Of a stretch of 64,000 nucleotides of DNA, positions 2,390 to 6,011 are shown in pieces; the stretch's first letter is position 1; each line of letters begins with the position of its first letter. The notes below the pieces were generated by a model that did no database searches, was not told the origin of the DNA, and saw nothing but the letters and a program-made list of their open reading frames with translations. Source of the stretch: Bradyrhizobium jicamae (GTDB lineage: Bacteria; Pseudomonadota; Alphaproteobacteria; Rhizobiales; Xanthobacteraceae). The stretch covers positions 372,001 to 436,000 of the forward strand of contig NZ_JAFCKQ010000001.1 in NCBI RefSeq assembly GCF_018130215.1. The letters are read 5' to 3'. A program made the position numbers and the translations under genes.

Positions 2390-2845
2390 CTAGCCCGGCT
2401 CCGGGGATGACTTCAAAAGGCGACGCAGCGCCGGACTGGCGGCTCGACGCAACTCCTCGATGTTCTTCCTCGAAATCGCCTGGAGTTTCTGCTCGCCCTT
2501 CCTGGTCAGCTTGAGCTGCACCCGCCGGCCGTCTTCGGGATCGGTCATCCGGATGATCAGCCCGAGCTTCACCATGCGGTTGATCAGCTCGACGGCGGAG
2601 TGATGCCGGACCAGCAGAAATCGCGCGACGTCGCCGACAGTCGCAGGCCGCGGATGGACGAAGCCCTTGATGCCGAGCAGCGCCTGGTGCTGTTGCGGCG
2701 TCAGTCCGGCCTGCCGCGCCCCCTGCTCGCTGAACGCGAGAAACGTCCGCAACTGGTAGCGAAAACGCGCCAGCGCCTCGTAGTCGACCGCTCCACTCGG
2801 CTTTGTGGCCTTGCCCGGCGCCATTCGCTGTTTCGGTTGAGGCAT
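2390..2845 (-). CDS. MarR-family transcriptional regulator
   Basis: Winged-helix MarR-type repressor of about 151 residues, usual for the family. Visible features are the helix-turn-helix with VGDVARFLLVRHHSAVELINRMVKLGLI and the wing MTDPEDGRRVQLKLTRKGEQKL, whose DxRRV pattern is typical of MarR. The ATG at 2845 gives a product starting MPQPKQR; an upstream start at 2914 would add 23 arginine-rich, low-complexity residues and is less likely. It converges on prfA with a 10-base gap. It follows the alpha-CTD-like gene on the same strand by about 140 bases, and both sit opposite the ABC transporter operon. I infer that it controls that transporter, possibly through the palindrome at 3500-3520; its ligand is unknown. 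Confidence 0.85.
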   Translation of the reverse strand: MPQPKQRMAPGKATKPSGAVDYEALARFRYQLRTFLAFSEQGARQAGLTPQQHQALLGIKGFVHPRPATVGDVARFLLVRHHSAVELINRMVKLGLIIRMTDPEDGRRVQLKLTRKGEQKLQAISRKNIEELRRAASPALRRLLKSSPEPG

Positions 2846-2985
2846 TCCGCCGTCCCTGGCCTTGCTCCGTCCGCCGCATGGCGGACGTCGGCTGACGGTA
2901 TCAAGCCCGGGCACGACCGGCCATCCCGGCGGGGATCCCCGGCCGTGTTGTCAACGGTTTGGCCGGGCCGCGTGCCGCGGTGGCG

Positions 2986-3453
2986 TCACGGCGACGGCCA
3001 CTGATCGTAGCTCGAGCTGAGCAGCTTCAGGAGCACGATCTGGAATGCGACCGGGATGCGGGCGCTCTTGCGGCGGATGGATTTCTCGAGCGCCTCGGTG
3101 ATCTCGCCCTTGGTGAGCTTGCCGGTGGAAGCGCGCTCGATCAGGTCGCGCCAGATCTGCGACAGCGATTTGCCGGCGTGGTGCGGAGGCTCGATCAACA
3201 CTCCGTGCGAGCGCGCCCACTCGATGATCTCGACCATCGTCTGCGGCCCGCAATTGCGCGCGGTGGCGAGGTGCCGGGCGGTCAGCTTGCGCAGCAGACG
3301 CTCCGGCGGCACCCACCCGACCTTCGGCGGTGTATCGCCGATGAGCTCGACCGCAAGTTCCTTGAGCACGTTCATCGCCCGCACGCTCAAGCCGGACGAC
3401 GGCTCCGCGCCACCTTCAGCACTTTCCGCGTGACCTGCCGTTTCCTCGATCAT
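2986..3453 (-). CDS. Stand-alone RNA polymerase alpha-CTD-like protein
   Basis: 155-residue protein of unknown function. Residues 22-85 resemble the C-terminal domain of the RNA polymerase alpha subunit: LSVRAMNVLKEL then IGD then LL then ARNCGPQTMVEIIEW and a final SHGV. Lined up by eye with E. coli alpha, Arg25 and Asn28 match Arg265 and Asn268, Asn67 and Gly69 match Asn294 and Gly296; these contact UP-element DNA in RpoA. About 13 extra residues lie between the two halves. No assembly domain of alpha is present, so this is not rpoA. Residues 95-155 are a basic, helical tail (KSIRRKSARIP). It is divergent from the ABC transporter and upstream of the MarR gene. A generic helix-hairpin-helix protein is the alternative reading. 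Confidence 0.75.
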   Translation of the reverse strand: MIEETAGHAESAEGGAEPSSGLSVRAMNVLKELAVELIGDTPPKVGWVPPERLLRKLTARHLATARNCGPQTMVEIIEWARSHGVLIEPPHHAGKSLSQIWRDLIERASTGKLTKGEITEALEKSIRRKSARIPVAFQIVLLKLLSSSYDQWPSP

Positions 3454-3499: not shown

Positions 3500-3520
3500 T
3501 TATATCGTGAAGCGATATAA
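3500..3520. promoter_or_regulatory. Perfect inverted repeat, candidate operator
   Basis: TTATATCG, five bases, CGATATAA: an 8+8 perfect dyad in the 222-base gap between the alpha-CTD-like gene (leftward) and the ABC binding-protein gene (rightward). Size and symmetry fit a MarR- or GntR-type dimer site, and a MarR gene is two genes away. The binding protein is inferred, not shown. It is AT-rich in a GC-rich setting, so it could also overlap promoter elements. Confidence 0.55.
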
Positions 3521-3675
3521 TTCGACGAAAGTGACATTGACTAAACCCGCGGCTGGGCAATTGTTAGCGGTGGAGAGGCTGCGCAACAGCAGCCGCGCAC
3601 CTGCCGCCGGTCACCCCGATCCGGCGACCACTGGTGATGCGCGCCAAAATCAATCCATTTGGAGGATACCGAGCG

Positions 3676-5022
3676 ATGAGCACCAAGGAGTTTCGGCCGG
3701 GCAGGCAACTGAACGTTTCGCGTCGCACCTTGCTGCAGGCCGGTGCAGGCTTGATCGGCGGTGCGGTGCTTCCCGCCTCCGGCGCGCTTGCCGAGGATCA
3801 TCCGGCGATCGGGACCTATCCCGCCGGCTCGTCCGGCTCCTCGGTCTTCATCGGGATCTCGGTGCCGCGCACCGGCACCTATGCCGTTCAGGGCGAGGAT
3901 GAGCTCAAGGGCTATCAGCTCGCGATCGAACACATCAACAGCGGACACGACCTGATCAAGAAGATCTCGCCGAAGACCACCAAGGGCGTGCTCGGCAAGG
4001 AGCTGAAGTTCGGCGTTGCGGATTCCGCGGCGAAGCCGAACGAGGCCGTCCAGGCGCAGCAGCGCTTCATCACCGAGAACAAGGCGGTGATGATCACCGG
4101 TGGCACCTCCAGCGCGGTCGCGGTCGCGCTCAACAAGCTGGCGCAGCGCGAGAAGGTGATCTTCGTCTGCGGCATTTCCGGCTCCAACGATACCACCGGC
4201 AAGGATTGCGTGCGCTACGGCTTCCGCCAGGATTTCTTCGGCCAGACCGCGGCGGCGGCAATCGCGCCGGTGCTGATCAAGCAGTTCGGCAAGAACAAGA
4301 AGGCAGCCTACCTGACCCCGGACTACACCTATGGCCACACCGTCACCAAGTCGATGCAGGACTTCCTCGCCACGGCCGGCTGGACCACCACCACCGACCA
4401 GGTCTCGCCACTCGGCGCGCCGGACTATTCGTCCTACCTGCTCAACGTCGCCAACTCCGGCGCAGACGTTCTGATCAACGTCAACTGGGGACACGACGCC
4501 GTGCTGTCGACGCAGCAGGCCAAGCAGTTCGGCGTGCTCGACAAGATGAAGCTGGTGGTGCCCTACCAGGTCCCGTTCATCGCCCGCGAGACCGGCGGCC
4601 TGATGCAGGGCGTCTATGCGGCCACCGATTACTGGTGGACGATCGAGGACAAATATCCGCTGGCCAAGATGTTCAACGACGCCTTCGACAAGAAGTACGG
4701 CTACAAGCCGGAATGGGGCGCCGAGAACGCCTATGTCAGCTTCGCCCACTGGGCCCGCATGGTCGAGGAGGCCGGCAGCTTCTATCCGCCCGACGTCATC
4801 AAGGCCTACGAGAAGGGCGAGACCATCCCCTCGCTGGTCGGCGACGTCCACTATCGCGCCGAGGACCATCAGTGCGTGCGTCCCGTCATCATCGTCCGCG
4901 GCAAGATGGAAAAGGACATGAAGAACAAGGAGGACTATTACGACATCGTCGAGATCGTGCCCGGCGAAGGGCTGATGCAGAAACCGGACGCATTCGGCTG
5001 CCATCTCGGCGATTACACCTGA
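3676..5022 (+). CDS. Periplasmic substrate-binding protein of a branched-chain-amino-acid-type ABC transporter
   Basis: 448-residue periplasmic binding protein (type I fold, LivJ/UrtA/AmiC-like). The N-terminus has a Tat-type signal (SRRTLLQAG, then a hydrophobic stretch ending ASGALA). The mature part opens with IGISVPRTGTYAVQGEDELKGYQLA, typical of this family. GGAGG at 3661-3665 lies ten bases before the ATG at 3676, which decides this start over an in-frame ATG at 3634. It is the first gene of a transporter operon with permeases and ATPases at 5136-8591. The ligand cannot be read from the sequence; amino acids, urea/amides and aromatic acids are all known for the family. Confidence 0.9.
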   Translation: MSTKEFRPGRQLNVSRRTLLQAGAGLIGGAVLPASGALAEDHPAIGTYPAGSSGSSVFIGISVPRTGTYAVQGEDELKGYQLAIEHINSGHDLIKKISPKTTKGVLGKELKFGVADSAAKPNEAVQAQQRFITENKAVMITGGTSSAVAVALNKLAQREKVIFVCGISGSNDTTGKDCVRYGFRQDFFGQTAAAAIAPVLIKQFGKNKKAAYLTPDYTYGHTVTKSMQDFLATAGWTTTTDQVSPLGAPDYSSYLLNVANSGADVLINVNWGHDAVLSTQQAKQFGVLDKMKLVVPYQVPFIARETGGLMQGVYAATDYWWTIEDKYPLAKMFNDAFDKKYGYKPEWGAENAYVSFAHWARMVEEAGSFYPPDVIKAYEKGETIPSLVGDVHYRAEDHQCVRPVIIVRGKMEKDMKNKEDYYDIVEIVPGEGLMQKPDAFGCHLGDYT

Positions 5023-5135: not shown

Positions 5136-6011
5136 ATGATCAACTGGCCAAATTTCGTCTCCCAGCTGTTTAACGGACTGGCGCTCGGCGCCTTGCTGGC
5201 GCTGATCAGCTCCGGACTGACGATCATCTACGGCACGCTCGGCGTGCTCAATCTCGCCCATGGCGCCATGTTCATGATCGGCGGCTATGCCGGATATGTG
5301 GCCTACAGCTACACCGGCTCCTTCGTCGTCGCGGTCGTGGCGGGCTCGCTGTTCGTGATGGCGCTCGGAGTGGTGATGGAGCGGGTCGTGATCCGCCACT
5401 TCTATCATCGTCCGCATGAGGACCAGCTGCTGGTCACGTTCGGGCTCGGCATCTGCTTCGTCGAGATCGTGCGGCTGATCTTCACCAGCCAGTCCCAGGT
5501 GGTACCGCCGCCACCGATGCTGCAGGGCATCACCTCGCTCGGCTTCCTGTTCTACCCGACCTATCGCCTCGCGGTGGTCGGCATCGTCGCAGTCGCGCTC
5601 GGCGGGCTGTTCCTGGTGCTCTACCGCACGCGATTGGGAATGATCGTGCGCGCCGGCATCGAGGATTCGGTGATGGTGGATTCGCTCGGCATCAACGTCT
5701 ACCGCGTCTTCATGATCGTGTTCGGCATCGGCGCGATGGCCGCGGGCTTCGCCGGCATCATCAATGCGCCGGTGGTGTCGCTCACGCCCGGCGTCGGCGA
5801 CGACATCCTGGTCGAGACCTTCGTCGTCGTGGTGATCGGCGGCGTCGGCTCGTTTCCCGGCGCCATCCTCGGCGGCCTGATCGCAGGCGAGATCATCAGC
5901 ATCACCTCCATGTTCAACCCCGGTTACGCCTACGTCATGCTGTTCGCGGCAATGACGCTCGTGCTCGTGATCAGACCGCACGGCCTGCTCGGCACGCAGG
6001 GCCGCGAATGA
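5136..6011 (+). CDS. ABC transporter permease, LivH type
   Basis: 291-residue inner-membrane permease with about eight hydrophobic segments. The N-terminus NGLALGALLALISSGLTIIYG and the following GVLNLAHGAMFMIGGY are signatures of LivH/UrtB-type permeases; GIEDSVMVDSLGINV is the cytoplasmic loop that contacts the ATPase. It pairs with the permease half of the next gene, 13 bases downstream. No strong ribosome-binding site precedes the ATG at 5136. A 113-base gap with a hairpin separates it from the binding-protein gene. Confidence 0.92.
   Translation: MINWPNFVSQLFNGLALGALLALISSGLTIIYGTLGVLNLAHGAMFMIGGYAGYVAYSYTGSFVVAVVAGSLFVMALGVVMERVVIRHFYHRPHEDQLLVTFGLGICFVEIVRLIFTSQSQVVPPPPMLQGITSLGFLFYPTYRLAVVGIVAVALGGLFLVLYRTRLGMIVRAGIEDSVMVDSLGINVYRVFMIVFGIGAMAAGFAGIINAPVVSLTPGVGDDILVETFVVVVIGGVGSFPGAILGGLIAGEIISITSMFNPGYAYVMLFAAMTLVLVIRPHGLLGTQGRE

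Follow-up and report, generated by a model that had tools for sequence, protein, structure and literature searches.

A free-standing alpha-CTD-like protein linked to a MarR regulator and a divergent transporter operon in Bradyrhizobium

A stretch of 64,000 nucleotides from Bradyrhizobium jicamae, referred to here as the window, encodes a 155-residue protein predicted to contain the fold of the C-terminal domain of the RNA polymerase alpha subunit (alpha-CTD). We propose, with a probability of about 0.5, that this detached alpha-CTD-fold protein, together with its own helical domain, pairs with a MarR-family regulator and controls a divergent transporter from the region between them. The fold, DNA-contact face and genomic linkage of the protein were established by prediction and comparison; from these we infer a step at the promoter. 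The genes and domains concerned are as follows:

2986-3453, minus strand: coding sequence of the alpha-CTD-like protein, 155 aa (open reading frame, homologues, dN/dS)
3190-3390, minus strand: alpha-CTD-like domain, residues 22-88 (predicted structure, superposition, alignment)
2989-3189, minus strand: conserved C-terminal helical domain, residues 89-155, pI 10.1 (alignment, predicted structure)
2390-2914, minus strand, as the alpha-CTD-like gene: MarR-family regulator (PF12802, 48.5 bits; Pfam; start approximate)
3676-5022, plus strand: substrate-binding protein (SBP) of a HAAT-type ABC transporter, Peripla_BP_6 (Pfam, homologues)
5136-6011, plus strand: LivH-like permease (named after an annotated plasmid homologue)
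6025-7896, plus strand: fused LivM-like permease and ATPase in one open reading frame of 623 aa (open reading frame, plasmid homologue)
7893-8591, plus strand: LivF-like ATPase (open reading frame, plasmid homologue)

The neighbourhood described by the sequence-only reading, a MarR gene on one side and a divergent HAAT-type transporter on the other, proved to be conserved as a unit. In 30 of the 31 loci compared, the alpha-CTD-like gene is followed by MarR, the remaining locus (L103) stopping at a contig edge; the SBP is divergent and adjoining in 30, the other (L019) carrying a deletion. Across Bradyrhizobium, the SBP faces the gene at 81 of 86 gene places, with 222-1041 bases between match ends (89 match rows were reduced to 86 places by omitting the second pieces of split copies in G017, G259 and G212). 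Matches to the gene (E<=0.001) occur in 84 of 265 Bradyrhizobium genomes, 79 of which also hold the orthologous SBP and five of which do not; one genome has the SBP alone and 180 have neither, where SBP absence is defined as no match at 1e-150 (Fisher P 3e-60, kinship among genomes ignored). Of the five genomes that lack an SBP match, only G076 has an intact copy of the gene; the copies in G010, G210, G212 and G253 are fragments or broken. A single deletion in G253 (L114) evidently removed parts of both the gene and the SBP, so joint losses are not wholly independent. The flanks outside the unit vary, with prfA and ptsP in many loci, other genes elsewhere and a plasmid in one case, and the gene-MarR-transporter unit is preserved both on this plasmid, pS11L-1, and in another genus. 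The SBP itself scores far below the UrtA cut-off.

Nine further places were picked as exceptions. Among them, G076 (L111) keeps the alpha-CTD-like gene and MarR and lacks the transporter, while G139 (L110) keeps the transporter and lacks both genes beside it. In G240 and G057, all parts are present and the SBP match is split.

The proposed resemblance to the alpha-CTD holds at the level of the family, whereas the window protein by itself falls short of the curated threshold. The Pfam profile RNA_pol_A_CTD (PF03118) matches 27 of 29 family members at a limit of E 10 (best E 0.00023); the window protein, matched over residues 21-40, scores 18.4 bits and falls under the curated cut-off of 23.8. 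A weak RpoA match is also found in NCBIfam (residues 21-84, E 0.13), and PDB sequence searches gave no significant match (best E 0.53 and 0.87). When the family profile was aligned with that of RpoA alpha-CTDs, residues 19-88 were matched at 33% identity with a score of 30.5, which was reached by none of 200 column-shuffled controls (best control 30.36, next 18.5). The score was lower in an earlier profile-profile comparison that left out E. coli (probability 19%, P 0.0012). At E<=0.001, PF03118 identifies RpoA alone in the window genome. The frames among the matches listed in a class-wide PF03118 search of 289 genomes all have 275-436 codons and were taken as RpoA.

Structure prediction points in the same direction. 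The full-length model has a mean pLDDT of 76, and residues 18-92 predicted alone reach a pLDDT of 88.2 and a pTM of 0.77. When these residues were compared by VIA-align with the 420 chains ranked highest by Foldseek (419 aligned), alpha-CTDs occupied the first 14 of 42 listed rows, with Z 3.5-4.9, rmsd 2.5-3.9 over 51-59 residues and 20-31% identity. These entries derive from E. coli, H. pylori, Synechococcus and other polymerases, one being an integrative model; the highest unrelated row is Cre at Z 3.1. All Z values are below 5, and the tool itself warns that Z below 8 can reflect a mere common arrangement. Foldseek was not significant for residues 18-92, where an unrelated enzyme came first (E 0.46) and the best alpha-CTD row had E 1.1 and a probability of at most 0.63, or for the full model, where the best row had E 1.3 and an alpha-CTD appeared at rank 4 (E 2.7). 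When the full model was submitted to VIA-align, generic helical proteins came out on top over about residues 87-155 and alpha-CTDs appeared from rank 18. We therefore base the fold call on agreement among many alpha-CTD entries rather than on any single score: residues 18-92 superpose best on alpha-CTDs, as the sequence-only reading anticipated, and are predicted to take that fold, with modest Z and Foldseek E-values that are not significant.

These weak scores leave room for a helix-hairpin-helix DNA-binding protein of unrelated origin that merely resembles the alpha-CTD and serves in DNA repair or in a structural role. Consistent with this are the Pfam score under the cut-off, weak Pfam matches to HHH_9 in six of the 29 family members (best E 0.023) and the lack of any Foldseek match at E<=0.001 for either the full model or residues 18-92. 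However, no other protein scores as high in VIA-align as the alpha-CTDs of several organisms, and PF03118 recurs in nearly all members at its permissive limit. We consider this explanation improbable.

The DNA-contact face provides a further comparison. We take the DNA-contact positions of the alpha-CTD to be 265, 268, 269, 271, 294, 296, 298, 299 and 302 in E. coli numbering. In an alignment of 29 rows, representing 27 distinct loci (L038/L094 and L090/L097 duplicate each other), the equivalents of Arg265, Asn268, Lys271, Asn294, Gly296, Ser299 (as Thr) and Glu302 are invariant. The C269 equivalent is Val or Ala, and that of K298 is Gln, His, Arg or Leu. Thus the invariant share is seven of nine among contact-equivalent positions and 20 of 54 over all aligned positions (hypergeometric P 0.009 for the contacts taken here). 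Among them are Arg25, Asn28, Asn67 and Gly69, which align with E. coli Arg265, Asn268, Asn294 and Gly296 as had been claimed, and the lack of conservation among orthologues that would have spoken against the claim was not seen. As judged by alignment, and for the contacts taken here, the protein carries the DNA-contact residues of an alpha-CTD.

The faces directed at other proteins are less well kept. Residues D258, D259 and E261 (261 determinant) and E286, V287 and E288 (287 determinant) are presumably those that contact sigma and CRP; their equivalents are not conserved in the 29 rows. In our mapping, 28 of 29 rows keep the equivalent of T285, which we also take to belong to the 287 determinant; the mapping of 285-288 hinges on a one-residue gap that two alignments place differently. 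Since the 261-determinant residues and most of the 287-determinant residues are not kept, contacts to sigma and CRP-like partners may differ from those of RpoA. These changes, together with the variable Lys298 equivalent, count against our main reading.

Beyond the alpha-CTD-like domain, the protein departs from RpoA in several respects. In alignment with E. coli rpoA, an insertion of 12 residues follows the first helix (about residues 41-52). Residues 89-155, described from sequence as a basic helical tail, are indeed basic and helical; they are not a loose tail, since the predicted structure and family alignment indicate a conserved segment of three helices. The alpha-NTD required for dimerisation and core assembly is absent, and Pfam at E<=10 gives a partial CTD match alone, which sets the protein outside RpoA. 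The genome's own rpoA, a 361-codon open frame with its own CTD, is located elsewhere, so the 155-aa protein is an additional one. Searching the window genome with the protein itself gave no significant second copy (next E 0.23), and a PHROGs search gave no match.

A contig search for the family yielded 14 named loci, all Bradyrhizobium. Family-wide, five of 149 genomes match, two of Bradyrhizobium and three of one other genus, and order-wide 11 of 397 match at E<=0.01, five of them Bradyrhizobium. The six other order-wide matches, all partial and with E 0.0036-0.009, were regarded as chance hits. The genome searches scored part of the first-look candidates (for example, 9 of 48 order-wide and 6 of 87 in the SBP search), so a missing match does not prove absence. 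Among 72,556 plasmid records there is a single match, the conjugative Bradyrhizobium japonicum plasmid pS11L-1 (NZ_CP126014.1), where the copy is annotated as a "hypothetical protein" of 615 bases. The whole cassette lies on this plasmid at L093:3655-9985, and the plasmid may have helped it to spread. A second group of relatives is about 59% identical; there the open frames continue upstream of the conserved part and start positions are provisional. None of 50,697 phage records matches the protein, and a virus origin was rejected after none of 17 pattern stretches in IMG/VR was confirmed.

It could be argued that the gene is a passenger, carried with the transporter cassette and lacking a regulatory role. 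G017 and G259 keep the SBP but have a broken reading frame for the gene, and in G259 (L018) MarR is also present. The gene is thus dispensable in these genomes, which counts against our main reading as well. However, dN/dS is 0.07-0.34 in the 11 differing pairs among 12 chosen from the alignment (the twelfth pair being two copies of one locus), which indicates purifying selection, and the gene persists in two genera as well as on a plasmid. A passenger role is accordingly very improbable.

Two sequence elements were found in the region between the alpha-CTD-like gene and the SBP gene:

3502-3518, no strand assigned: palindrome ATATCGTGAAGCGATAT, probable MarR operator, with perfect arms over 3500-3520 (motif scan)
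3523-3541, plus strand: transporter-promoter block CGACGAAAGTGACATTGAC, ending in a -35-like TTGAC and not private to the cassette (motif scan)

In the window, the palindrome starts 49 bases upstream of the alpha-CTD-like gene, counted from the first base of the start codon. The form ATATCGN5CGATAT is exact in 14 and within one mismatch in 22 of 25 intergenic regions, where shuffles expect 0 and 0.05; the motif was derived from the same regions in which it was counted and this is not a clean test. The 25 regions come from 32 then available (L007, L018, L019, L100, L101, L102 and L108 were excluded), and their ends are mostly match ends instead of annotated start codons. L017 contains no palindrome with fewer than three mismatches. 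With one mismatch allowed, the narrower pattern ATATCGTNANNCGATAT occurs at the window site and at one other place in the window genome. On the basis of this co-occurrence, the palindrome is a probable MarR operator, and the layout is that of a MarR-controlled divergent operon, with a MarR gene, a divergent operon and a palindrome between. Palindrome centres fall mostly at -27/-28, about -50 and +20/+21 relative to the first base of the conserved TTGAC. The operators at +20/+21, in L097, L099, L103, L105 and L107, suggest repression by MarR in these five loci, while upstream operators elsewhere fit either direction. The window genome's other operator-like palindrome, with one mismatch, lies in L121 (G000:C81:18844-18860), a locus that also has a 398-aa open reading frame, transporter-like by eye.

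The block follows a different pattern. Its general form, CGACSAAAN3-4AMATTGAC, is exact in 22 of the 25 intergenic regions. In the window genome, the form ACATTGAC occurs once, and the window's exact 19 block bases recur only at three mismatches, in five places. For comparison with other genera, 16 of 20 loci with an orthologous SBP were used, the four from Bradyrhizobium being dropped. Two of these 16, from genus g5, have the gene, MarR and palindrome, while in the other 14 the 1.5 kb upstream of the SBP showed neither an alpha-CTD-like gene nor MarR. Nonetheless, the block is exact in nine of these 14, with one mismatch in one, two mismatches in three and a doubtful three-mismatch match in one. 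It is also intact in G139 despite the absence of both regulatory genes. Thirteen of the 14 loci lack the palindrome even when two mismatches are allowed (last 1000 bases scanned); in L169, a one-mismatch variant lies 210 bases upstream of the hexamer. G203 contains a second SBP that stands alone, with no block (at up to four mismatches) and no palindrome below three mismatches within 1 kb.

The idea that the block is a private site of the alpha-CTD-like protein was ruled out, since the block is found where no alpha-CTD-like gene or MarR is nearby. As it is kept without the regulators, we assign it to the transporter promoter, as an element that either predates the regulatory pair or is independent of it; the pair and the palindrome look like a later addition. 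This independence of block and protein also counts against our main reading. The block CGACGAAAGTGACATTGAC is common to several genera upstream of the transporter, with or without the pair.

The same data bear on two further explanations. In one, the alpha-CTD-like domain would be a co-factor of MarR only, stabilising it on its operator without touching the polymerase. This would agree with the near-constant order of the two genes and with the joint absence of genes and palindrome from 13 of 14 loci in other genera, but the conserved face is the alpha-CTD's DNA face, which is needless for help by protein contact alone; we regard it as rather unlikely. In the other, the protein would fill a site by the -35 and displace the polymerase's own alpha-CTD, keeping the transporter repressed until MarR senses its ligand. 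The block sits where a proximal alpha-CTD site would, running into TTGAC; E. coli UP-element subsites are centred near -42 and -52, with proximal alpha-CTD binding near -42 (PMC4496709). The operators at +20/+21 would also suit repression. However, the promoter position is putative, a sigma-70 promoter scan giving no match at threshold, and the block is present without the protein, which a competitor would allow. Such competition seems an outside prospect of similar weight.

The main reading, that the detached protein pairs with MarR to control the transporter, can be set out as a sequence of steps. MarR would sense a ligand; its binding to the palindrome and its regulation of both directions have indirect support. 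The alpha-CTD-like domain may bind in the minor groove of A/T-rich DNA close to the operator or the -35 hexamer region, and the conserved C-terminal domain may contact MarR or polymerase. The free alpha-CTD could then help or tune activation in trans, as RpoA's alpha-CTD does in cis. On the simplest reading, a free alpha-CTD beside MarR would help or hinder polymerase. A conserved DNA face and a tight tie to one operon argue for a role at the promoter, within the region between the genes. The local transcription device suggested from sequence thus follows well from the conserved linkage to MarR and the transporter, its step at the promoter being one that we infer. As the sequence-only reading proposed, it may compete with the polymerase's alpha-CTD or bridge a regulator to DNA, or it may act in another way. 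More tentatively, the protein might read upstream DNA in trans in a promoter-specific manner, with MarR as sensor, and be private to this one transporter promoter; we hold this to be possible and somewhat doubtful.

Several known systems are comparable in part. The alpha-CTD of RpoA (PF03118) shares the predicted fold, the motif order and Arg, Asn, Lys, Asn, Gly, Thr for Ser, and Glu at the DNA-contact positions. In contrast to it, the protein here lacks an alpha-NTD and a polymerase tether, does not keep the Lys298 equivalent and has both the insertion after the first helix and the extra helical domain. MarR regulators of divergent transporter operons are a general pattern. The present locus shares the MarR gene beside a divergent operon and the palindromic site between, and differs in the conserved second regulatory-looking protein between MarR and the divergent region. 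In Bacillus, Spx and the alpha-CTD recognise a promoter together (PMC2801614). This resembles the joint action of a small protein and an alpha-CTD proposed here, but the alpha-CTD there is the polymerase's, whereas here the domain is free and its partner would be MarR. Francisella likewise has more than one kind of alpha per cell, alpha1 and alpha2, but these are two RpoA subunits and not a detached domain (PMC3294249).

Non-RpoA proteins with alpha-CTD-like domains were also observed in other Alphaproteobacteria, at L138:1006-1764 (252 aa, 60 bits) and at L141:1195-1692 (165 aa, 27.8 bits; adjoining an open reading frame that is integrase-like by eye). Database names for such proteins exist. 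The two examples mean that a detached alpha-CTD domain is not by itself unique. Among the matches listed in a literature search, mostly outside subscription journals, no such free alpha-CTD protein was described, nor were the MarR pairing, the extra helical domain or the single-operon cassette.

In its familiar form, the alpha-CTD is an arm tethered to the polymerase. If our reading is true, a free alpha-CTD serving a single operon would mean that the UP-element and activator interface is separable from the enzyme and usable as a regulator. As the system is small, comprising one divergent region, two regulators and one type of palindrome, this would be directly testable.
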